This document shows, one piece after another, positions 53,927 to 63,861 of a stretch of DNA of 64,000 nt. The translations under genes and the position numbers were made by a program. The notes beneath the pieces were generated by a model, which saw nothing but the letters and a program-made list of their open reading frames with translations, did no database searches and was not told where the DNA came from. The stretch is from Buttiauxella sp. A111 (GTDB lineage Bacteria > Pseudomonadota > Gammaproteobacteria > Enterobacterales > Enterobacteriaceae), in NCBI RefSeq assembly GCF_014189855.1, contig NZ_BJFN01000002.1:372001-436000 (forward strand), read 5' to 3'. Position 1 is the stretch's first letter. Every line of letters starts with the position of its first letter.

Positions 53927-54838
<912 letters not shown>

Positions 54839-54963
54839 TCAGGTTAACTAGCCCAAAGCAGCCCCGCCACTCGAAAACACCGATAATAAGAAATTAATGA
54901 CAAACTGCTAAAGTTATCAGTAAAACCTATGGTTCACCTGATAATCAAAGGGTTTTAAGTCAG

Positions 54964-55974
54964 TCATTTTGCAAACCCGCACGACTCCCTTACCACCAGC
55001 GTAGGCGGGAGGATTATCCGTTTTGGCGGTTCGTCGTTGCCCTGAATTCGGCTATACAATAACTCCCCCGCTTTGCGTCCAATTTCTTTGGCCGCGACTG
55101 AAACCGTCGTCAGCGCAGGCTGTACCAGGGATGCTTCGGTGATGTCGTCGAATCCTATCAGCGCAAAATCCACACCCGGCTGGCGGCCCATTTTCCGTAG
55201 CGTCTGCATCACGCCCAGCGCCACAATATCCTGATAACAGACTGCCGCTGTGATTTCCGGATAACGGCTAAACAGCTCTTCAGCCACCCGCGCGCCGTCA
55301 CTTTGGCTGGCGAGCGATGAAACAACCCATTCGCTTTTCGGTTGGATACGATGCTCCAGCAATTTACTGCTGTAGCCCCCAATACGCTGGGCGCGGCTAA
55401 TGGAGTTTTCACTGCCGCCGATAAATGCGATATGACGATGGCCCAGACGCAGCAAATGCTGTGTCGCCAGTTGCGTACCCAAAAAGTTGTCAGTGCCGAC
55501 GAAATCGAAATCAACGTCGTCCATGGGGCGCACCACCATAATCGCCGGGATGTTCCGCCGCTTCAGAGTTTCGAAAAACAGCGGCGGCGTCTCCCTTGCC
55601 GCGCACAACACCATTCCACAGGCGTTGTTACGCATCAGAGAATCGACAAACTTTTGCTGGCGCTCACCCGACTCCTCGCTATTAGCGAGAAACAGCAGCA
55701 AGTCGTGGCGCTCCATTTCCTGACTCAACCCGGCAGTCATTTCGCCATAAAACGGGTTGGTGATGTCGTGCAGTAATAATCCGACCTGGTTGCTGGTGCG
55801 ATTACGTAGATTCGCAGCCGTCTGGTTGTAAACATAACCCAGATCGTCCAGGGCTTTGAGTACGCGACTTCGGGTGGCGTCAGATATTCGGCCTCGATTA
55901 CGCAACACCATCGAAACGGTAGCGGTTGAAACTGCCGCCTGTTTTGCAACCTGGGCAAGGGTAACGGTGCTCAT
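54964..55974 (-). CDS. LacI-family transcriptional repressor of the adjoining sugar island
   Basis: Helix-turn-helix repressor with a periplasmic-binding-protein-like effector domain; 336 residues from the ATG complementary to 55972-55974 (AGGAG ribosome site; a GTG two codons earlier is an alternative). The HTH is LAQVAKQAAVSTATVSMVL at residues 6-24, the hinge helix near residue 50, and the effector core continues to the end. I do not recognise a named orthologue; it resembles the MalI branch only loosely. Divergent from the PTS operon. Palindromes at 56007, 56129 and 62056 are the likely operators, so it probably represses itself, the PTS operon and the cupin pair. Confidence 0.9.
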   Translation of the reverse strand: MSTVTLAQVAKQAAVSTATVSMVLRNRGRISDATRSRVLKALDDLGYVYNQTAANLRNRTSNQVGLLLHDITNPFYGEMTAGLSQEMERHDLLLFLANSEESGERQQKFVDSLMRNNACGMVLCAARETPPLFFETLKRRNIPAIMVVRPMDDVDFDFVGTDNFLGTQLATQHLLRLGHRHIAFIGGSENSISRAQRIGGYSSKLLEHRIQPKSEWVVSSLASQSDGARVAEELFSRYPEITAAVCYQDIVALGVMQTLRKMGRQPGVDFALIGFDDITEASLVQPALTTVSVAAKEIGRKAGELLYSRIQGNDEPPKRIILPPTLVVRESCGFAK

Positions 55975-56006
55975 CGACACTCCTCACAATTAAGCATTTC
56001 CCAATA

Positions 56007-56022
56007 GATTAATCGAATAACC
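56007..56022. promoter_or_regulatory. Island operator 1 (upstream of the LacI-type gene)
   Basis: GATTAATCGAATAACC, a near match to the perfect palindrome at 62056 (GGTTAATCGATTAACC), 33 bp upstream of the repressor start codon; suggests autoregulation. Confidence 0.75.
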
Positions 56023-56041
56023 AAAAAATTACTCTCTGCCA

Positions 56042-56057
56042 TGTGAAAGCCATCACA
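56042..56057. promoter_or_regulatory. CRP site in the divergent region
   Basis: TGTGA-AAGCCA-TCACA fits the CRP consensus at all ten defined bases. It lies between the operators for the two divergent genes, so cAMP-CRP could activate one or both. Confidence 0.85.
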
Positions 56058-56096
56058 GATAACTCGGTTTTTCGCAATCCATTGCTAAAAGTGGTG

Positions 56097-56113
56097 GGTT
56101 AATCGCGTTTACC
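56097..56113. promoter_or_regulatory. Degenerate island operator
   Basis: GGTTAATCGCGTTTACC carries both arms of the island palindrome but with an extra base in the centre. Whether it binds the repressor is uncertain. Confidence 0.4.
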
Positions 56114-56128
56114 ACACTGTTCAAAATG

Positions 56129-56144
56129 GGTTAATCGATTAATC
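56129..56144. promoter_or_regulatory. Island operator 2 (upstream of the PTS operon)
   Basis: GGTTAATCGATTAATC, one base from the perfect palindrome at 62056, 28 bp before the start codon of the first PTS-operon gene. Confidence 0.8.
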
Positions 56145-56172
56145 TTAATCTATCAGAAACAGGGAGAATATT

Positions 56173-57921
56173 ATGCATTCGGCATCATACGATAAGTATC
56201 CCGAAGTCAGGGTTTCAGGGTTTGACCACCAGGCATCGCAGGGCTGGTCAGCTATCAAACACATGCTCGATGAGCAACTCACACGCACCGAAAAAACCGT
56301 ACTGGTGATTGACTGCTACCCCGGTGTTCAACTTGACGAGCTGCATTCACAGCTCATTACGCAGTTGCATCCTGATCTGGTTATCAACGCAGAATCAGCG
56401 CGGTTGAGTGAGCAACATCTGCATGACTTGCTGGCGTATAACCTGACCGATGACCGCGTCTTCGGCGTGCTTTCCTGCCACGAATTAACAGAGTTTTTTT
56501 GCCCTGAGAAACTGGCTCACGCGCAGCAGCAAGTTGCTGAAGTCAACAACGGCCTGGTCGTGATTTACGGCCCCGGGGCTGCATTGATTCACCAGGGTGA
56601 CATGCTGGTCTATGCAGACCTTGCGCGCTGGGAAATCCAGCAGCGTTTTCGTCGGGGTGAATTGGGCAACTGGGGTGTAGATAATTGTGATGAAGATATT
56701 CTGCGCCGCTATAAACGTGCCTTTTTCATTGAGTGGCGCGTGTTTGACCGCCATAAAACCCCGCTGCTAAAACGGGCAGATTTCCTGCTCGATACCAACA
56801 ACCCTGAACAACCCGCCATGGTCAGTGGTGAAGCGCTACGCCACGGCCTGCAACAAACCACGCAACAACCTTTCCGCGTGGTGCCATTCTTCGACCCGGG
56901 TGTCTGGGGCGGCCAATGGATGAAAGACAAATTCAATCTCGATCCCTCAAAGCCAAATTACGCATGGTGTTTTGACTGTGTGCCCGAGGAGAACAGCCTG
57001 TTACTGCGTTTTGGTGATGTGCGGATCGAGATCCCCTCTCAGGATCTGGTGTTGCTCTACCCTCGCCCGTTGCTTGGTGAGCGCGTTCATGCCCGATTTG
57101 GTGCGGAATTCCCGATCCGTTTCGATTTCCTCGATACCATCGGCGGGCAGAATTTAAGTTTCCAGGTTCATCCGATAACGGAGTACATCCAGCAGCATTT
57201 CGGGATGCACTACACGCAGGATGAAAGCTACTACCTGCTGGAAGCGGAACCGGGTGCGGAAGTTTACCTCGGAACCAAAACGGGAATCGATCCGCAAGAA
57301 ATGCTCGACTCACTCGCGGCCGCACAACGCGGAGAAAAGGCGTTTGATGATGAGAAGTTTGTAAACCGTTTCCCGGCCCGTAAACACGATCATTTCCTGA
57401 TCCCTGCGGGCACCGTTCACTGCTCTGGATCTGGCGCGATGGTGCTGGAAATCAGCGCCACGCCGTACATTTTCACCTTTAAATTATGGGACTGGGGCCG
57501 GTTAGGTCTTGATGGTCTGCCGCGTCCAGTACATCTGGAACATGGCGCACAAGTCATTGACTGGCAACGTGATACCCAATGGGTGACCGAGCACCTGGTG
57601 AACCATTTCGAGCCGATTGCCGAAGGCGACGGCTGGCGCGAAGAACGTACCGGTCTGCATGAACGGGAGTTTATTGAAACACGTCGCCACTGGTTTACGC
57701 AGCCCGTAACGCACCATACCAACGGCGGGGTCAACGTGCTGAACCTGGTAGAAGGTGACGAAGCGCTGGTTGAAAGCCCAAGCGGCGCATTCGAACCGTT
57801 TGTCGTGCACTACGCCGAAACCTTCATCATTCCCGCAGCCGTTGGGGAATACCGCATTTCACCGTACGGTCACGGTGCTCATCAACAACTCGCCACCATG
57901 AAAGCCTGGGTAAGGGGATAA
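56173..57921 (+). CDS. Class I mannose-6-phosphate isomerase-like protein with extra N-terminal domain
   Basis: 582 residues, much longer than ManA (about 390). The C-terminal half, from about residue 235 (PFFDPGVWGGQWM), is phosphomannose-isomerase-like: zinc ligands are expected in LSFQVHP near 331-334, the Glu of the following DESYYLL region and the His of IPAGTVHCSG near 416. The first 200 residues (VLVIDCYPG near 41, VYADLARWEIQ near 152, RYKRAFFIEWRVFD near 180) form a domain I cannot name; it has no canonical Walker A loop. GGGAG precedes the ATG. First gene of the operon, 2 bp before EIIA. It probably converts an imported aldose 6-phosphate, but the substrate is unknown. Confidence 0.85.
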   Translation: MHSASYDKYPEVRVSGFDHQASQGWSAIKHMLDEQLTRTEKTVLVIDCYPGVQLDELHSQLITQLHPDLVINAESARLSEQHLHDLLAYNLTDDRVFGVLSCHELTEFFCPEKLAHAQQQVAEVNNGLVVIYGPGAALIHQGDMLVYADLARWEIQQRFRRGELGNWGVDNCDEDILRRYKRAFFIEWRVFDRHKTPLLKRADFLLDTNNPEQPAMVSGEALRHGLQQTTQQPFRVVPFFDPGVWGGQWMKDKFNLDPSKPNYAWCFDCVPEENSLLLRFGDVRIEIPSQDLVLLYPRPLLGERVHARFGAEFPIRFDFLDTIGGQNLSFQVHPITEYIQQHFGMHYTQDESYYLLEAEPGAEVYLGTKTGIDPQEMLDSLAAAQRGEKAFDDEKFVNRFPARKHDHFLIPAGTVHCSGSGAMVLEISATPYIFTFKLWDWGRLGLDGLPRPVHLEHGAQVIDWQRDTQWVTEHLVNHFEPIAEGDGWREERTGLHEREFIETRRHWFTQPVTHHTNGGVNVLNLVEGDEALVESPSGAFEPFVVHYAETFIIPAAVGEYRISPYGHGAHQQLATMKAWVRG

Positions 57922-57923
57922 AA

Positions 57924-58352
57924 ATGATTAATGTGATTCTGGCAACACACGGCTCACTGGCAGAGGCGCTTCTCACCAGTTCGCGCATGGTATACGGCGA
58001 ATTACCGCATGTTTTCCCCGTCATGCTCACGGAAAACAAAGGCATCAATAGTTTTGCTGATGAGTTTGCCGCTGTTTTGAAAGAGGCAAGTAAAGGAGCC
58101 GATGGCGTGTTGGTGCTATGCGATTTGCAAAGCGGTACGCCGTGGAACATCGCCTGTCATCACGCGTTTGACCCACAAACACAGCCGCCAATCGCGGTTC
58201 TCGGTGGGGTGAATTTCCCCATGTTGCTGCTGAGTGATGAAATAAAAGATCTGCAAGATGTTGAGCACGCTGCCGCGCAACTGCTGGAGCAAACGCAAGA
58301 AACGCTGGTACAGGCTCGTCTGGCTGAAGCTGCGCAATCGGATGATTTCTAA
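57924..58352 (+). CDS. PTS EIIA component, mannose class
   Basis: 142-residue cytosolic phosphocarrier. The active His is in MINVILATHG (residue 9), and the fold continues through LCDLQSGTPWN near 69 and LGGVNFPMLL near 91, typical of the mannose-fructose-sorbose family EIIA. Encoded separately from EIIB, unlike ManX where the two are fused. It accepts phosphate from HPr and passes it to the EIIB that follows 9 bp downstream. Confidence 0.93.
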   Translation: MINVILATHGSLAEALLTSSRMVYGELPHVFPVMLTENKGINSFADEFAAVLKEASKGADGVLVLCDLQSGTPWNIACHHAFDPQTQPPIAVLGGVNFPMLLLSDEIKDLQDVEHAAAQLLEQTQETLVQARLAEAAQSDDF

Positions 58353-58361
58353 GGAGGCACG

Positions 58362-58856
58362 ATGAGTATTTCATTTGTACGTATCGATGATCGGGTGATC
58401 CACGGCCAGTTAGTGACTCGCTGGGCAAAAGAGCTGCCGTGCCAGGGGATCATCGCGATTGACGATGCCGTCGCCGCGGATCCTCTGCTTTCTTCGGTCA
58501 TGAAAGGTGCGGTTCAGGACATCAAAGTTTGGCTGTTTGATACCGCAACGGCGATTGAAAAACTGCCCAAGATCATCGCCAGCGAAAAGCACTATTTCGT
58601 GATTGGCAAATCCCCGGTCACGCTAAAACGCATCGAAGAAGCGGGGATTAGCCTGCAAAACAGCAATAAAAAAATCAACGTTGGCCCGATGAGCGCACGT
58701 GCCACCACCACAACCATTGGCCCTAATCAGTCTGTAAACCCGGAAGAGATAGCCGCGTTCGACTACCTCTCAAGCCGCGGGCACCAGATTGAATTTCGTC
58801 TGGTTCCCGATGCCAGCTGCTACAGCTGGCAGGACGCTCGCCAAAAACTCAAATAA
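58362..58856 (+). CDS. PTS EIIB component, mannose class
   Basis: 164 residues. The phosphorylated His is residue 14 in FVRIDDRVIHGQLVTRW, the signature of mannose-class EIIB. It has a strong ribosome site, TAAGGAGG. The order A-B-C-D resembles the sorbose (sorFBAM) and levan (levDEFG) systems. Confidence 0.94.
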   Translation: MSISFVRIDDRVIHGQLVTRWAKELPCQGIIAIDDAVAADPLLSSVMKGAVQDIKVWLFDTATAIEKLPKIIASEKHYFVIGKSPVTLKRIEEAGISLQNSNKKINVGPMSARATTTTIGPNQSVNPEEIAAFDYLSSRGHQIEFRLVPDASCYSWQDARQKLK

Positions 58857-58867
58857 AGGAGTGCATT

Positions 58868-59665
58868 ATGGCTTTTGAAGCGGCTTTGATCGGCATTCTC
58901 TGTTACCTCGGTGCGTTAAGTAGCCCATGGCTGCTGGGGCTTACTGGTGGCTGGTATTTGATTACTCGCCCATTGGTTTCAGGAATGTTGGTAGGATTTA
59001 TTCTCGGCGATGTTCAAACCGGGATTATCATTGGTGTGGCGGTTCAGGCTGTGTACATCGCGATGGTAACCCCCGGTGGATCTATGCCTGCCGATCTGAA
59101 CTTTGTGGCTTTCCCGGCAATCGCGCTGGGTATTCTTTCCAATAAAGGCCCGGAAGTCGCCGTGGCGTTAGCCGCCACCATCGGTATTGCAGGGACTGTG
59201 TTGTTCAACGCCATGATGGTACTGAACTCGTGGTGGAACCACCGCGCAGACGTTGCACTTGAGAAAGGCGACGAACGCGGTGTGTACCTCAACAGCGCCA
59301 TCTGGCCACAAGCCACCAATTTTGTGATGCGCTTTGTGCCGACGTTTATTGCCGTCTATTTTGGCGCGCAGTATATCAATGCCTTTATGGACAGCCTGCC
59401 GCATATCGTCCTTTCCACGATGAACGTGCTGGGTGGCATTCTGCCAGCGGTCGGGATCGCGATTCTTCTCAAACAAATCATCAAAAATTACAGCATGTTG
59501 ATTTACTTCCTGGTGGGGTTTATCTGCATCGTTTTCCTGAAATTAAACATGGTGGCGCTGGTGATTGTCGGGGCGCTGCTGGCGTTAATTCACTACAACT
59601 ACAAACCCGAGCCGCAGGCTGAACGTGTAGCCTCAAGCGCCACTGATGATGAGGATGAATTCTGA
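58868..59665 (+). CDS. PTS EIIC component, mannose class
   Basis: Integral membrane sugar permease of 265 residues with about seven to eight hydrophobic segments. Family signature near residue 55: QAVYIAMVTPGGSMPAD, and VAGILG-like glycine-rich segments. The acidic C terminus (ATDDEDEF) is cytosolic by expectation. AAAGGAG precedes the ATG; its TGA shares a base with the EIID ATG. Confidence 0.94.
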   Translation: MAFEAALIGILCYLGALSSPWLLGLTGGWYLITRPLVSGMLVGFILGDVQTGIIIGVAVQAVYIAMVTPGGSMPADLNFVAFPAIALGILSNKGPEVAVALAATIGIAGTVLFNAMMVLNSWWNHRADVALEKGDERGVYLNSAIWPQATNFVMRFVPTFIAVYFGAQYINAFMDSLPHIVLSTMNVLGGILPAVGIAILLKQIIKNYSMLIYFLVGFICIVFLKLNMVALVIVGALLALIHYNYKPEPQAERVASSATDDEDEF

Positions 59666-60480
59666 TGGAAGAACGTAAACTCACTCGCCAGGATTTACGC
59701 CGCTGCTGGCGTAGCTGGATGATGTACAACCTCTCGTCCATGAGCTTTGAGCGCCTTGAGTCATTCGGTTTTTGTTTGAGCATGCTGCCGGTGGCGAAAA
59801 AACTCTATCCCGATGAGGAACAACGTAAGGAGATGCTCAAGCGCCACGCGTCGTTTTATAACACCGAGCCACAGTTGGGTGCGATCGTGAACGGCATGGT
59901 GCTGGGACTGGAAGAAAAGCGCGCCAATGGTGAACCGATTGACGGCGAAACTATCAACACCCTGAAAGTGGGATTGATGGGACCGGTGGCAGGCATTGGT
60001 GATTCGATGATCCCCGGCATGTTGATCCCGATTCTACTCAGTATCGGTATGGCGCTTGCGGCAGGCGGGAATATCCTCGGACCGCTGTTTTATTGCGTTG
60101 CCTGGCTTGCGATTATTATTCCCGGATCGTGGTTCCTGTTCCTGAAAGGTTACCGCATGGGTTCAACGTCTGTTGAAATGCTGGTGAGCAGCAAATCAAC
60201 GCGCCTGCGGGAAGCGCTATCGTTACTCGGCGTGTTCGTGATGGGCGGCGTGGCGGCAAGTTATGTGAAGCTGGGGACCGGGCTTGAGTTTGTCACCAAA
60301 GATGGCGTGAATATTCATGTGCAGCAGATGCTGGATGGAATTTTCCCGAATTTGTTACCGTTGCTGGTTGTGATTGGCACCTGGTATTTGATGGCTAAAC
60401 GCGGTGTTTCGCCGGTGAAAGCGATGTTGTTATTGCTGGTGCTGGCCGCGGCGGGTGTGGCAGTTGGGTTGTTTAGTTGA
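59665..60480 (+). CDS. PTS EIID component, mannose class
   Basis: 271 residues, the second membrane protein of the complex. N-terminal LTRQDLRRCWRSWMMYNLSSMSFERLESFGF and MGPVAGIGDSMIPG near residue 109 are typical of EIID, with membrane segments in the C-terminal half. Overlaps EIIC by one base. The operon ends here; a repeat cluster follows directly. Confidence 0.94.
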   Translation: MEERKLTRQDLRRCWRSWMMYNLSSMSFERLESFGFCLSMLPVAKKLYPDEEQRKEMLKRHASFYNTEPQLGAIVNGMVLGLEEKRANGEPIDGETINTLKVGLMGPVAGIGDSMIPGMLIPILLSIGMALAAGGNILGPLFYCVAWLAIIIPGSWFLFLKGYRMGSTSVEMLVSSKSTRLREALSLLGVFVMGGVAASYVKLGTGLEFVTKDGVNIHVQQMLDGIFPNLLPLLVVIGTWYLMAKRGVSPVKAMLLLLVLAAAGVAVGLFS

Positions 60481-60494
60481 TTGTAGTGTTAATT

Positions 60495-60669
60495 TCCCCC
60501 TCACCCCGACCCTCTCCCCCAGGAGAGGGGGAAAACATACTCGATCAGTCCCCTCTCCCTCAGGAGAGGGGGAAAACATACTCGATCAGTCCCCTCTCCC
60601 TCAGGAGAGGGGGAAAAACATACTCGATCAGTCCCCTCTCCCTCAGGGAGAGGGTTAGGGTGAGGGTGG
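60495..60669. repeat. Palindromic repeat cluster with 41-bp tandem units
   Basis: Opens CCCTCACCCCGACCC and closes GGGTTAGGGTGAGGG. In between, a unit marked by ATACTCGATCAGTCCCCTC recurs at 60537, 60578 and 60620 (periods 41 and 42), each unit holding a CTCTCCCTCAGGAGAG palindrome. Lies between the converging EIID and cupin genes. Confidence 0.9.
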
Positions 60670-60672
60670 TTT

Positions 60673-61455
60673 TTAAGGATGAAAATTCACCCACTTCTGA
60701 CTCACCATCCCCGGCTTAGAAATAAACTGAAACCGCGCCGGATCGTCTATAAACTGCTGATATAACGGCTCATCTGTAATACCAAACTCGGTATAACAAC
60801 GCGGCGACGTCACCTGTAAGCGCCCCGGCATGTAATGGCGATTATGCTGCCAGGCAATATGTTCATCCTGCAACAACGGATACCACGCCAACCCTTTGTA
60901 AGCGCGAACCGCCTCGTATTCAAAACCGTATTCTCTGTCGCACCAGGCACCAAACGTCAGCGGTTCATCCGGCGAAGCTGAAATCGTGGCGTGCGCCCAA
61001 CCCGGCGGCACCAGCACTTTCTCACCAGGGCCTGCGAGAACGGCAAAACAGCGCCCCGGATCGTCAGCAACATATTCCTGCATATAGATGATCGCTTTAC
61101 CCTGCCAGATTTCATACAGCTCAGGCGGGGACCAACCGCTATGGCTGCTGATGCGGTGAATATGCCCCTGGCTGCGTATGGGCTCATCACCCAAACGCCC
61201 GGAGGCGTACGTCACCACGCCAAACAGCAACATTCTTTTTTTGAGTTCTTCCCGATCCTGTAAACGTGCCACATCCATAACAATGGCATAAACATCTTCC
61301 GGCCCATCACAGTGCGGATCGCGTAACGAAGCGCGGATGCTTTCAAGTTTGCGGATCTCCGGCAACGGACCAATCACTTCTTCCCCGTAGCTAAAGCCCA
61401 TTGGCTGGTGATGCACTTGCATATCCAGCCCGAAGTGAAGGCGCGACTCAGCCAT
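60673..61455 (-). CDS. Cupin-type glucose-6-phosphate-isomerase-like protein, larger paralogue
   Basis: 260 residues from the ATG complementary to 61453-61455. Cupin of the archaeal-type phosphoglucose isomerase family. Candidate metal ligands are H98 and H100 in SQGHIHRI, a Glu in PPELYEIWQGK (112 or 115) and H155 in VPPGWAHATI. Second gene of a two-gene unit; its start overlaps the smaller paralogue by 8 bp. E. coli uses an unrelated PGI for glycolysis, so this protein likely serves the adjoining PTS sugar; the true substrate is unknown. Confidence 0.85.
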   Translation of the reverse strand: MAESRLHFGLDMQVHHQPMGFSYGEEVIGPLPEIRKLESIRASLRDPHCDGPEDVYAIVMDVARLQDREELKKRMLLFGVVTYASGRLGDEPIRSQGHIHRISSHSGWSPPELYEIWQGKAIIYMQEYVADDPGRCFAVLAGPGEKVLVPPGWAHATISASPDEPLTFGAWCDREYGFEYEAVRAYKGLAWYPLLQDEHIAWQHNRHYMPGRLQVTSPRCYTEFGITDEPLYQQFIDDPARFQFISKPGMVSQKWVNFHP

Positions 61456-62011
61456 TTTGCACCTCTTTTGCCTGGATTTTTCCATCCTGCAAAACCACGC
61501 GCGCTGCAAAACCCTGCGCCAGCGAGCCGTAATCGTGGCCCGCAATGCTCGGCCAAACAGCCAGTGCTGAGAGCACTTCGCTGCCGGTATTGATCAGCCG
61601 ATGCGCGGTATCCCCTGGAATAATATGCACCGAACCCGGTGAAACGTGCTCCAGCCACGCTTTGCGATGCTCGTTTTGCAGCAGCAGCAAGCCACTTCCC
61701 CGGATCCCGAAGTACACCTCCCCCTGCTCGCGGCGCTGATGGAAATGCCCGCGAGTCATATGGAATTCGTTGCCCACGCGGCCCGGATGCAGATGCGTCA
61801 TGCCAACATACAACTCACCTTCCCCTTGCAGGGAATTGAGCATTTCGACTTCATAAATCGGAGTATCGGATGGAATAGCCTGCCAGGCGGCGATATCGTG
61901 AAACACGCCGCTCAAATCACCGCTGCGGGTGACTTTTTTAATCACATTTTCAGCCGTGAATTGGCCTGTAAGGAACGCCACGCTCGGTGGTTTATTGAAG
62001 GTAATACTCAT
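61448..62011 (-). CDS. Cupin-type glucose-6-phosphate-isomerase-like protein, smaller paralogue
   Basis: 187 residues from the ATG complementary to 62009-62011 (CGGAG ribosome site), close to the length of archaeal cupin phosphoglucose isomerases. Metal-site pattern H89-F-H91-x6-E98 in TRGHFHQRREQGEVYFG and H137 in GDTAHRLINTG, one residue off the positions I recall for the Pyrococcus furiosus enzyme (88, 90, 97, 136). It looks catalytically intact. First gene of the cupin unit, with an island operator over its promoter. Confidence 0.88.
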   Translation of the reverse strand: MSITFNKPPSVAFLTGQFTAENVIKKVTRSGDLSGVFHDIAAWQAIPSDTPIYEVEMLNSLQGEGELYVGMTHLHPGRVGNEFHMTRGHFHQRREQGEVYFGIRGSGLLLLQNEHRKAWLEHVSPGSVHIIPGDTAHRLINTGSEVLSALAVWPSIAGHDYGSLAQGFAARVVLQDGKIQAKEVQNG

Positions 62012-62045
62012 CGTTTTTCTCCGGCCCAAGGAGAACTGCTGAATC

Positions 62046-62074
62046 AGCATAGCAAGGTTAATCGATTAACCGAA
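62046..62074 (-). promoter_or_regulatory. Promoter and island operator 3 of the cupin pair
   Basis: A perfect 16-bp palindrome GGTTAATCGATTAACC (62056-62071) sits between a candidate -35 TTCGGT (complement of 62069-62074) and -10 TATGCT (complement of 62046-62051) with a 17-bp spacer. A repressor bound there would block polymerase. It is the best copy of the island palindrome. Confidence 0.8.
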
Positions 62075-62114
62075 TAGTTGGACCGGAGAAAGTCGATCTG
62101 CGTCGCGTTAAATA

Positions 62115-63032
62115 TTACGGGGCCAGCGCCAGCACCTCTGCCACCCATGCCCGGAAACCTGCAACGTCTAAATCCATTGCTACCTGTGCATTGGGCTGTC
62201 GTTCTAACCGGCCTTCGAGATCGACAACCGTGGTTCCCGCCGTAAACTCGCCGTGGGTTTCCACCGCCACAAAACATGATTCCATGCGGAAAAGTTCAGG
62301 TTTTACCAACCAGGCGATAGCGCAGAGATCATGCATTCTCAGACCCGTAGACATACTTCCGCTGCGATAGTGGCTGAACAGCGCGTGCAGCATTTTCCCG
62401 GTTTGATTCAGTTCGGGAAGTGTTGCCAGATATTCTGGGCTAAGCATCGCCTGATTGGTCACATCGAGGCCGCACATCACGATCTCCAACCCGCTTTCAA
62501 ACACGCGCGCACCCGCTTCAGGGTCGATAGCCATATTGAATTCAGCGTTCGGTGTGAAATTACCGCGGCCCGCCGATCCGCCCATAATCACCAGACGTTT
62601 GATCTTCGGTTTGCACTCTGGGTACTGAGTGAGCAACAAAGCGATGTTGGTCAACGGGCCAATCGCCACCAGCGTGACGGGCTCAGCGCTTGCACATAAG
62701 CACTCGAAAATGGCCTGAAAAGCAGGTTTATCCAGCACCTTCCGCTGATGTTCAACGAACGCATAACCTTCCATACCGGACTCGCCATGAACATTAGCGG
62801 CGTCACGCAGTTTACGCACCAGCGGGGTTGCGGCACCTTGTGCAACCGGAATATTCTTCTGCCAGAAGTGCATTAATTGCAGAGCATTGCGCGTTGTTTT
62901 CTCAACGCTGACGTTGCCTGCGACTGTCGTCAGAAGTTTTAAATCCAGCTGAGGGGAAAAAATCGCGGCGGCTATCGCGACGGCATCATCAATGCCAGGG
63001 TCGGTATCGAGAATGATTGAAGTTTTGTCCAT
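62115..63032 (-). CDS. rihC: Ribonucleoside hydrolase RihC
   Basis: Non-specific purine/pyrimidine nucleoside hydrolase. It has 305 residues (E. coli 304). The Ca2+-binding motif [13 protein letters not shown] is at residues 7-19, with [16 protein letters not shown] near 119, [24 protein letters not shown] near 150 and the distal Asp ligand in [11 protein letters not shown] near 232. In E. coli rihC directly precedes dapB; here they are on the same strand but the sugar island lies between them. Confidence 0.93.
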
Positions 63033-63064
63033 AAATCGCGCTCTTCTCTTTTAAGCATATTAGG

Positions 63065-63093
63065 TACATAGGTGGCGATTAGCTTACTATGTA
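63065..63093. promoter_or_regulatory. Inverted repeat upstream of dgoR
   Basis: TACATAG (63065-63071) and CTATGTA (63087-63093) form a perfect 7-bp inverted repeat with 15 bp between, in the 97-bp gap between rihC and dgoR. Candidate operator for a GntR-type regulator. Confidence 0.45.
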
Positions 63094-63129
63094 GCTCGCT
63101 TCTATTTTTTGGTCTGGTCGAGAAAAACG

Positions 63130-63861
63130 ATGAAAACCCCACAGGCAAGCATTTCAGAATCCGTCACTCAACATCTTGCGCGACGAATTATGCACGGCGA
63201 TCTCGCGCCGGGGCTTTCACTGCCTGGTGAGAACGAACTGGCCGTCGAATATGAAGTCTCACGCACTTCCGTGCGCAATGCGCTCCAGGTTCTTGCGGCA
63301 AAAGGACTTATCTCTATTCAGGCCAAAAAACGCAGCACAGTGAACAGTCGCGAGCAGTGGAGCCTGCTGGATATCGACGTACTGGGCTGGCTGGCTGAAG
63401 GCGAACTTGACCTGAAACTGGTTGAGCAACTGATCGTGACGCGTCTGATTTTCGAGCCAAACGTGGCAACGCTTGCGGCACTCAATGCCAACGGTCACGA
63501 TCTGGCAGCAATGGAAGATGCACTCTTACTGATGCGTAAAGGCCAGCTTGAAGCACAAAAATCCTTGTTTGAAGAAGGCGATATGGCGTTTCACCATGCC
63601 TTATTACGCGCCACGCATAACCCCTTTCTTTTAGCACTCGGAAATGCACTTTCCGCAGCCATGGCGCTCTCCTTCCGGCAAACGCTTGAAAAAGACGTAC
63701 GCCAGACGAAAGCTGCCGTCGATGAACACTACCTGCTGTTTGATGCCATACGCCTTAAACAAATCGATAATGCTCGCCTACAAATGCGCAATATTCTGCT
63801 CAATGCCGCCAAAAAACGGATCTGGCAAGATCGGCCGGAAATGTTCGACCACATAATTTGA
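63130..63861 (+). CDS. dgoR: DgoR-like GntR-family repressor of galactonate catabolism
   Basis: GntR regulator of the FadR/FCD subfamily. The ATG at 63130 gives 243 residues; an in-frame start seven codons earlier lacks a ribosome site. N-terminal winged helix with GENELAVEYEVSRTSVRNALQVLAAKGLI at about residues 37-65, C-terminal helical FCD domain with metal/ligand residues in the MAFHHALLRATHNPFL region near 158. The product next door is DgoK, which supports a role in D-galactonate use, although other FCD regulators look similar. Confidence 0.85.
   Translation: MKTPQASISESVTQHLARRIMHGDLAPGLSLPGENELAVEYEVSRTSVRNALQVLAAKGLISIQAKKRSTVNSREQWSLLDIDVLGWLAEGELDLKLVEQLIVTRLIFEPNVATLAALNANGHDLAAMEDALLLMRKGQLEAQKSLFEEGDMAFHHALLRATHNPFLLALGNALSAAMALSFRQTLEKDVRQTKAAVDEHYLLFDAIRLKQIDNARLQMRNILLNAAKKRIWQDRPEMFDHII

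Follow-up and report, generated by a model that had tools for sequence, protein, structure and literature searches.

In Buttiauxella sp. A111, a block of sugar genes lies between dapB and rihC, within a 64,000-nucleotide stretch (contig NZ_BJFN01000002.1, positions 372,001 to 436,000; hereafter the window) of a draft genome of 4.89 Mb in 37 contigs. It is best filed as a local LacI regulon for mannose-type sugars that includes a long phosphomannose isomerase (PMI), here called PMI582, of a family unnamed in the searched libraries, and a pair of cupin isomerases, cupL and cupS. The comparative evidence leads us to regard the regulon as real, and we think it probable that the block is an accessory, repressor-controlled pathway for mannose (mannose-6-phosphate), additional to the housekeeping manXYZ and manA. 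In the proposed scheme the LacI-family protein would, without inducer, occupy the operators O1, Ox and O2 in the gap between its own gene and the phosphotransferase system (PTS) operon, and O3 ahead of the cupin pair. A mannose-type hexose would enter via the EIIABCD complex to give mannose-6-phosphate, which PMI582 would convert to fructose-6-phosphate; cupS, and probably cupL, would interconvert fructose-6-phosphate and glucose-6-phosphate or aid with mannose-6-phosphate. The repressor would be released by one of the pathway's sugars or sugar phosphates, and CRP-cAMP would add glucose control of the PTS operon. The result is a testable regulon of one repressor, four sites and eight genes counting the repressor.

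A sequence-only reading of this DNA had proposed that a single 16-bp palindrome links the PTS operon, the repressor gene and the cupin genes. A mismatch scan of the window at up to three mismatches returned exactly the three sites named there, O3 (0 mismatches), O2 (1) and O1 (2) (Table 1); the chance expectation is 0.19 on average, and three sites occurred in 0 of 100 shuffles. The expectation that a genome-wide search would give only three good hits also held, since no further palindrome with two mismatches or fewer is present in the genome. We then have the comparison of 11 Buttiauxella genomes scanned with GGTTAATCGATTAAYC, one mismatch allowed. All ten that carry PMI582 have exactly three sites, which share one contig in nine of them and are split over two contigs in the other (G006); G007, the genome devoid of PMI582, has none in 4.8 Mb. 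Plain chance as the origin of the palindromes is rejected on the basis of the window shuffles, the genome scan and this pattern of presence and absence.

The operators are also retained in relatives. A scan for PMI582 gave 589 confirmed loci, of which the best 80 were used, 35 gammaproteobacterial and 45 from other groups. The LacI-PMI582 gap and the region ahead of cupS were scanned at up to four mismatches, the remainder of each locus at up to two. The gap holds a site with at most two mismatches in 33/35 gammaproteobacterial loci (exceptions L050 and L054), as does the region upstream of cupS in 23 of the 25 that bear this gene (exceptions L050 and L057); beyond these two regions no site of this quality was found in about 0.7 Mb of the relatives' loci. 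When the gap of 20 of the 35 gammaproteobacterial loci was aligned with that of the window (the other 15 being omitted), conservation amounted to 96-98% for O1, O2 and Ox, the latter scored one base off its true place, 85% for the CRP half-sites and 58% for the remaining gap. The spacing is nearly fixed among the 21 regions, with 55 bp between the CRP site and Ox in 19, 32 bp between Ox and O2 in 20 and 35 bp between O1 and the CRP site in 18; L030, which has no CRP site, is the main exception. Many of the compared species are close relatives and the conservation counts are therefore not independent. The CRP-like site itself, also part of the sequence-only reading, matches the consensus halves at 10/10 positions. 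At the usual class I distance, CRP would put the start point inside or just behind Ox.

The repressor scores above the Pfam cut-offs for a LacI helix-turn-helix (PF00356) and a periplasmic-binding-type effector domain (PF00532/PF13377). Its nearest NCBIfam model is that of the MalI subfamily (NF007449), where its 308.1 bits stay below the cut-off of 310 and leave it outside this subfamily. The recognition-helix region reads TVSMVLRN, or a near form of it, in 34 gammaproteobacterial loci, that is, in all except the Vibrio locus L050. There the LacI protein is 44% identical, the recognition helix reads TVSQVLGG, the regulon motif is absent and a CG-centred palindrome, GATATAACGATATATC, lies upstream of PMI582 instead. 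Such a joint change is what would be expected of a repressor-operator pair, though it is a single case. Comparative evidence lends strong support to the prediction that the repressor binds a palindrome centred on CG close to its own gene and to its targets. The view of one LacI-type repressor and one motif serving three gene groups thus draws on uniqueness, on co-occurrence with the block, on positional conservation and on the joint change of repressor and motif.

The PTS, repressor and cupin genes of the earlier operon picture stand, but it left out Ox and the first gene of the PTS operon. The latter encodes PMI582 (582 aa) and is the key to the pathway. At E ≤ 0.01, PMI582 is matched by none of the Pfam or NCBIfam models; relaxing the limit to E = 10 adds a lone sub-threshold match to FERM_N_2 (residues 37-91, 15.7 bits against a cut-off of 23.8, E = 0.023), which is taken as chance. 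Residues 229-457 match Bacillus ManA (PDB 1qwr) both with phmmer (E = 3.1e-13) and with a profile (5.5e-14). The AlphaFold model, for which 44 relatives served as input, has a predicted local distance difference test score (pLDDT) of 92.2; its best Foldseek match is again 1qwr (E = 6.4e-24, template modelling score on the target 0.83), followed by the Archaeoglobus and Salmonella PMIs, and the 50 matches listed for the full-length model are PMI and other cupin entries. Residues Q331, H333, E351 and H416 are invariant among 44 sequences, and from the alignment with 1qwr and known PMI structures we take them to be the metal ligands. By modelled fold and ligand-type residues, the C-terminal 350 residues (about 230-582) can be assigned as a type I phosphomannose isomerase. 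PMI582 does not reach the Pfam cut-off for PMI_typeI_cat; among the 44 members scanned at E ≤ 0.01 this model was detected in eight (best 0.0013) and a weak HTH_33 in one. The nearest named relatives, in B. agrestis and B. izardii, show 91% protein identity. A widespread protein family, unnamed by Pfam and NCBIfam in the searches made, thereby gains a likely role.

Residues 1-225 of PMI582 form a conserved domain with many invariant charged residues, the invariants being D94, D149, R152, W153, E154, Q156, R158, K181, R189, D192 and K195. A sequence profile search of the PDB with this part returned one chain only, at E = 0.3, and no convincing relative. A degenerate uridine-kinase-like domain was considered and rejected, hhalign of a 30-sequence profile against E. 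coli Udk giving 3.3% probability (E = 0.013). Tentatively, PMI582 may represent a bifunctional, undescribed family of bacterial isomerases whose N-terminal domain has a second catalytic or a sensing role, and which with cupL and cupS would make up an old three-enzyme module, used with varied transporters in several phyla for a mannose-derived hexose phosphate by an unmapped route; we give this extension limited credence.

Both cupins pass the PF06560 (GPI) cut-off of 20.7 bits and have the H-x-H...E...H pattern. The match to archaeal phosphoglucose isomerase (PGI; PDB 1j3p) is at E = 6.8e-38 for cupS and 2e-6 for cupL. The cupL model (pLDDT 93.6) finds the Pyrococcus/Thermococcus PGIs at the top of the Foldseek results (best E 1.4e-12). 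H98, H100, E112 and H155 of cupL are invariant among 24 sequences, and H89, H91, E98 and H137 of cupS among 22. We conclude that cupS and cupL are of the phosphoglucose-isomerase type, and infer their exact step as given above; bacterial cupin isomerases would thereby be tied to mannose use. A hairpin over the presumed cupS ribosome-binding site is conserved across genera and occurs once in the genome when two mismatches are allowed. Its stem is present in 5/6 minimum-energy folds with energies not clearly below those of shuffles, and the idea of a thermodynamically exceptional hairpin was unsupported (z between -1.86 and +1.20 for the six leaders). Its position over the putative ribosome-binding site makes translational control possible. 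Elsewhere, on the Salmonella plasmid L114 (4177-7912), a cupL paralogue (27%) is clustered with a ptsG-like PTS, a 6-phospho-3-hexuloisomerase and a 3-hexulose-6-phosphate synthase, in what appears from its gene content to be an unusual sugar pathway.

The PTS exceeds the cut-offs of all four mannose-class Pfam models, EIIA-man, PTSIIB_sorb, EII-Sor (IIC) and EIID. Its EII proteins are 28-35% identical to E. coli ManXYZ and fall outside the ManXYZ orthologues; 92-93% identity is found at another locus of the host, its own manXYZ, which excludes the block PTS as a simple copy of E. coli manXYZ. Two further EIID-bearing loci are present in the host. In Maledivibacter a PTS of the clade of the block adjoins a ManA relative that passes the Pfam cut-off and falls below that of NCBIfam, and on a Lactiplantibacillus plasmid one adjoins an annotated class I mannose-6-phosphate isomerase gene; on a Lacticaseibacillus plasmid with this clade no mannose-6-phosphate isomerase gene was seen.

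The pathway went unnamed in the sequence-only reading as one not recognised as characterised; genome context now points to mannose and mannose-6-phosphate. GH38 relatives occur in 7/35 gammaproteobacterial loci. In Photobacterium L052, PMI582 is followed by a MngA-like PTS gene (420 bits, cut-off 763); this locus also has, on the opposite strand, a MngB-like GH38 gene (672 bits, cut-off 1138) with another PTS gene and another LacI relative as its neighbours. In Aeromonas L053 the genes after PMI582 include those for a glucose-family PTS IIBC and a MngB-like GH38 (633 bits), and Pluralibacter L054 has a PTS of the same type with a GH38 relative; the LacI-PMI582 gap of these loci contains operators at 2-3 mismatches. 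The Enterobacter-type loci L037 and L038 carry, divergent to cupS, genes for a MngA-like PTS and for a GH38 protein, with additional operator copies ahead of them at positions -172 and -231 relative to cupS; the GH38 protein of L037 is MngB-like (634 bits), and that of L038, cut off by the end of the locus, was not scanned. In L043 the operators are separated from PMI582 by a shortened MngA-like gene and a MngB-like gene. Outside the gammaproteobacteria, GH38, GH92 or GH76 relatives were found in 17/45 loci and a ROK kinase relative within 3 kb in 29/45, some of these matches arising by construction, as several reference proteins of the neighbour search came from the same loci. GH92, GH76 or GH38 neighbours are annotated in four of seven plasmid records with PMI582; one Deinococcus plasmid record has an AGE epimerase and a ROK gene near PMI582 and no mannosidase, and the Listeria and other Deinococcus records have no such glycosidase neighbours annotated. 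An eighth plasmid record is unannotated in this region. Large open reading frames near PMI582 in L061 (3194-7275, Spirochaetes) and L073 (12123-14723, Fimbriimonas) are alike by tblastn, have no Pfam match and perhaps represent an undescribed hydrolase family.

A number of observations weigh against mannose as the sugar, or against so simple a scheme. The host also has manXYZ and manA, and a second mannose route would merely duplicate the first unless it differed in regulation, affinity or substrate; nor can the sugar be transferred from ManXYZ at so low an identity of the EII proteins. The strand and neighbours of the MngB-like gene in L052 mean that it may answer to another regulator, and 28/45 non-gammaproteobacterial loci, several of them short contigs, have no GH38, GH92 or GH76 relative in range. 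In Priestia (L059) PMI582 adjoins a classical ManA, which would be odd if both performed the same step. In Parabacteroides (L113) the order cupS-ROK-cupL-MFS (sugar porter)-GH2 is found beside SusC/D genes, with no PMI582 in the stretch. Five of the 30 PTS-bearing gammaproteobacterial loci (Pantoea, Mixta, Sodalis) have no cupins nearby, and a consensus scan gave no sigma-70-like promoter against a shuffle mean of 4.8.

The same regulon might instead serve a rarer hexose (of the allose, altrose or talose type, or an amino or deoxy analogue), the three isomerases taking its 6-phosphate stepwise into glycolysis. The housekeeping mannose genes of the host and the Priestia and Parabacteroides arrangements would all favour this, as would the fact that mannose needs fewer than three isomerases. 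We nevertheless hold a rarer hexose to be unlikely, given that alpha-mannosidase and mannosylglycerate-type genes adjoin PMI582, with the same operators nearby in L037, L038 and L043, and that Pfam and NCBIfam scans of the block find no gene for an epimerase, kinase or aldolase. A less probable variant has the cupins linked to the regulon by regulation and not as enzymes for the imported sugar, buffering glucose-6-phosphate and fructose-6-phosphate or repairing side products. It would suit the five PTS-bearing loci without cupins and the further divergence of cupL than of cupS from proven PGIs; it sits badly with the invariant metal-ligand pattern of both cupins and with their linkage to PMI582 in Bacillota, Spirochaetes, Bacteroidetes/Chlorobi and others. 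That the palindromes are due to chance or to some other regulator is scarcely credible. At three mismatches the genome does contain 17 further places (20 in total against 6 for a reversed-pattern control), and the motifs of LacI-family regulators resemble one another, but the exact match between block and sites in Buttiauxella, the conserved operators with their near-fixed spacing, and the altered motif where the recognition helix is altered all speak for the repressor of the block. An accessory mannose regulon remains our preferred reading.

With respect to linkage, a LacI relative is present in 35/35 gammaproteobacterial PMI582 loci, the PTS in 30/35 and both cupins in 23/35. In the other 45 loci both cupins occur near PMI582 in seven (Priestia, two Clostridia-type metagenome-assembled genomes (MAGs), a Spirochaetes MAG, a Chlorobiota MAG, Hymenobacter and Dysgonomonas) and any cupin in 15, none of these with the PTS. 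Cupin genes without the PTS, which the sequence-only reading had regarded as speaking against a local regulon, thus exist outside the gammaproteobacteria; the local regulon still stands, and the finding suggests that the cupins belong with PMI582 rather than with the PTS. Matches to cupL were found in 36 of 295 Enterobacteriaceae genomes, of which 31 are full-length (at least 72%), one is a fragment (G225) and four are weak (24-29%). All 31 genomes with full-length cupL have PMI582 on the same contig, that of G128 being in pieces on two contigs. PMI582 itself has matches in 44 of these genomes, 34 at 60% or above (in pieces in G079 and G128), two at 51-54% and eight weak and ManA-like; the 34 comprise 31 with full-length cupL, one with the fragment and two with no cupL (G132, 81% complete, and G079, 85%).

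The sequence-only reading was right to place the block between dapB and rihC, which are immediate neighbours in E. coli K-12, and the accessory nature that it proposed is supported. PMI582 had no DNA match among 5426 E. coli genomes, and the whole block matches them only over a 44-bp stretch in two genomes (60623-60666, mostly inside the tandem repeat). One relative locus (L042) carries the block on a contig titled Escherichia coli SCPM-O-B-8794, perhaps mislabelled. In G007 the dapB-rihC gap (L126, G007:C29:9000-20000) holds another cassette, made up of a LacI-like regulator, three Gfo/Idh oxidoreductase-like genes, a transporter-like gene and one more, their kinds being judged by eye from the translations. 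The slot accordingly looks like an exchange site for sugar cassettes, and those with LacI-like regulators vary here between close relatives. The cupin genes are indeed on the opposite strand, past the repeat cluster (Table 1). A search of 54700-63200 for RNA families gave a single sub-threshold match, to whalefall-1 (18.9 bits, gathering score 37).

Table 1. Features of the dapB-rihC block, in window coordinates.
Feature	Position	Strand	Evidence or remark
LacI-family repressor, 336 aa	54964..55974	-	Pfam LacI HTH E=1.7e-14, and Peripla_BP_1/3
Operator O1 GATTAATCGAATAACC, repressor side	56007..56022	+	2 mismatches; kept in relatives
CRP-like site TGTGAAAGCCATCACA	56042..56057	+	0-1 mismatch in 20/21 intergenic regions, missing from L030
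Operator-like site Ox GGTTAATCGCGTTTACC, 17 bp with an additional base at the centre	56097..56113	+	conserved about like O1/O2
Operator O2 GGTTAATCGATTAATC	56129..56144	+	1 mismatch; 44 bp upstream of PTS-operon start
PMI582 (long phosphomannose isomerase, 582 aa), first gene of PTS operon	56173..57921	+	fold, ligand-type residues
Mannose-class PTS EIIA	57924..58352	+	PF03610 E=4.4e-16
Mannose-class PTS EIIB	58362..58856	+	PF03830 E=1.2e-37
Mannose-class PTS EIIC	58868..59665	+	PF03609 E=6.9e-65; 27.5% identity to E. coli ManY
Mannose-class PTS EIID	59665..60480	+	PF03613 E=1.7e-90; 35.5% identity to E. coli ManZ
Tandem repeat, 41 bp x 3.5 copies	60510..60654	.	separates converging gene groups
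cupL, cupin of phosphoglucose-isomerase family, 260 aa	60673..61455	-	PF06560 62.8 bits
cupS, cupin of phosphoglucose-isomerase family, 187 aa	61448..62011	-	PF06560 73.8 bits
Hairpin TTCTCC-TTGGGCC-GGAGA, TTCTCCTTGGGCCGGAGA, over presumed cupS ribosome-binding site	62018..62035	-	conserved leader
Operator O3 GGTTAATCGATTAACC, perfect palindrome	62056..62071	+	45 bp upstream of cupS

Local LacI-family sugar regulons have been surveyed by Ravcheev et al. 2014 (PMC4052901), whose local sugar repressors are like that of the block. The survey has an entry 'Mannose and mannosides: ManR', and the parts of it that we consulted contain no regulon of this make-up. No published description of the regulon was found in the literature searches made, RegPrecise being outside their scope.

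Among known systems, E. coli manXYZ with manA shares the mannose-class EII subunits and, at the next step, the type I PMI fold. It differs from the block in that the latter has separate EIIA and EIIB proteins, a LacI repressor of its own and two cupin isomerases, and in the extra N-terminal domain that the isomerase of the block has compared with ManA. A second system, mngA-mngB of E. coli, consists of a PTS for 2-O-alpha-mannosyl-D-glycerate and a hydrolase, and its regulator MngR is of the GntR type. MngA and MngB relatives are absent from the block in the window; they adjoin PMI582 in Photobacterium and in some Enterobacter-type loci, always under the NCBIfam equivalog cut-offs. The archaeal cupin PGIs of Pyrococcus and Thermococcus have PF06560, the fold and the metal-ligand pattern in common with the cupins of the block, which in contrast to them occur as two differing, adjacent copies in a bacterium, and in a host that presumably has a classical pgi as well.

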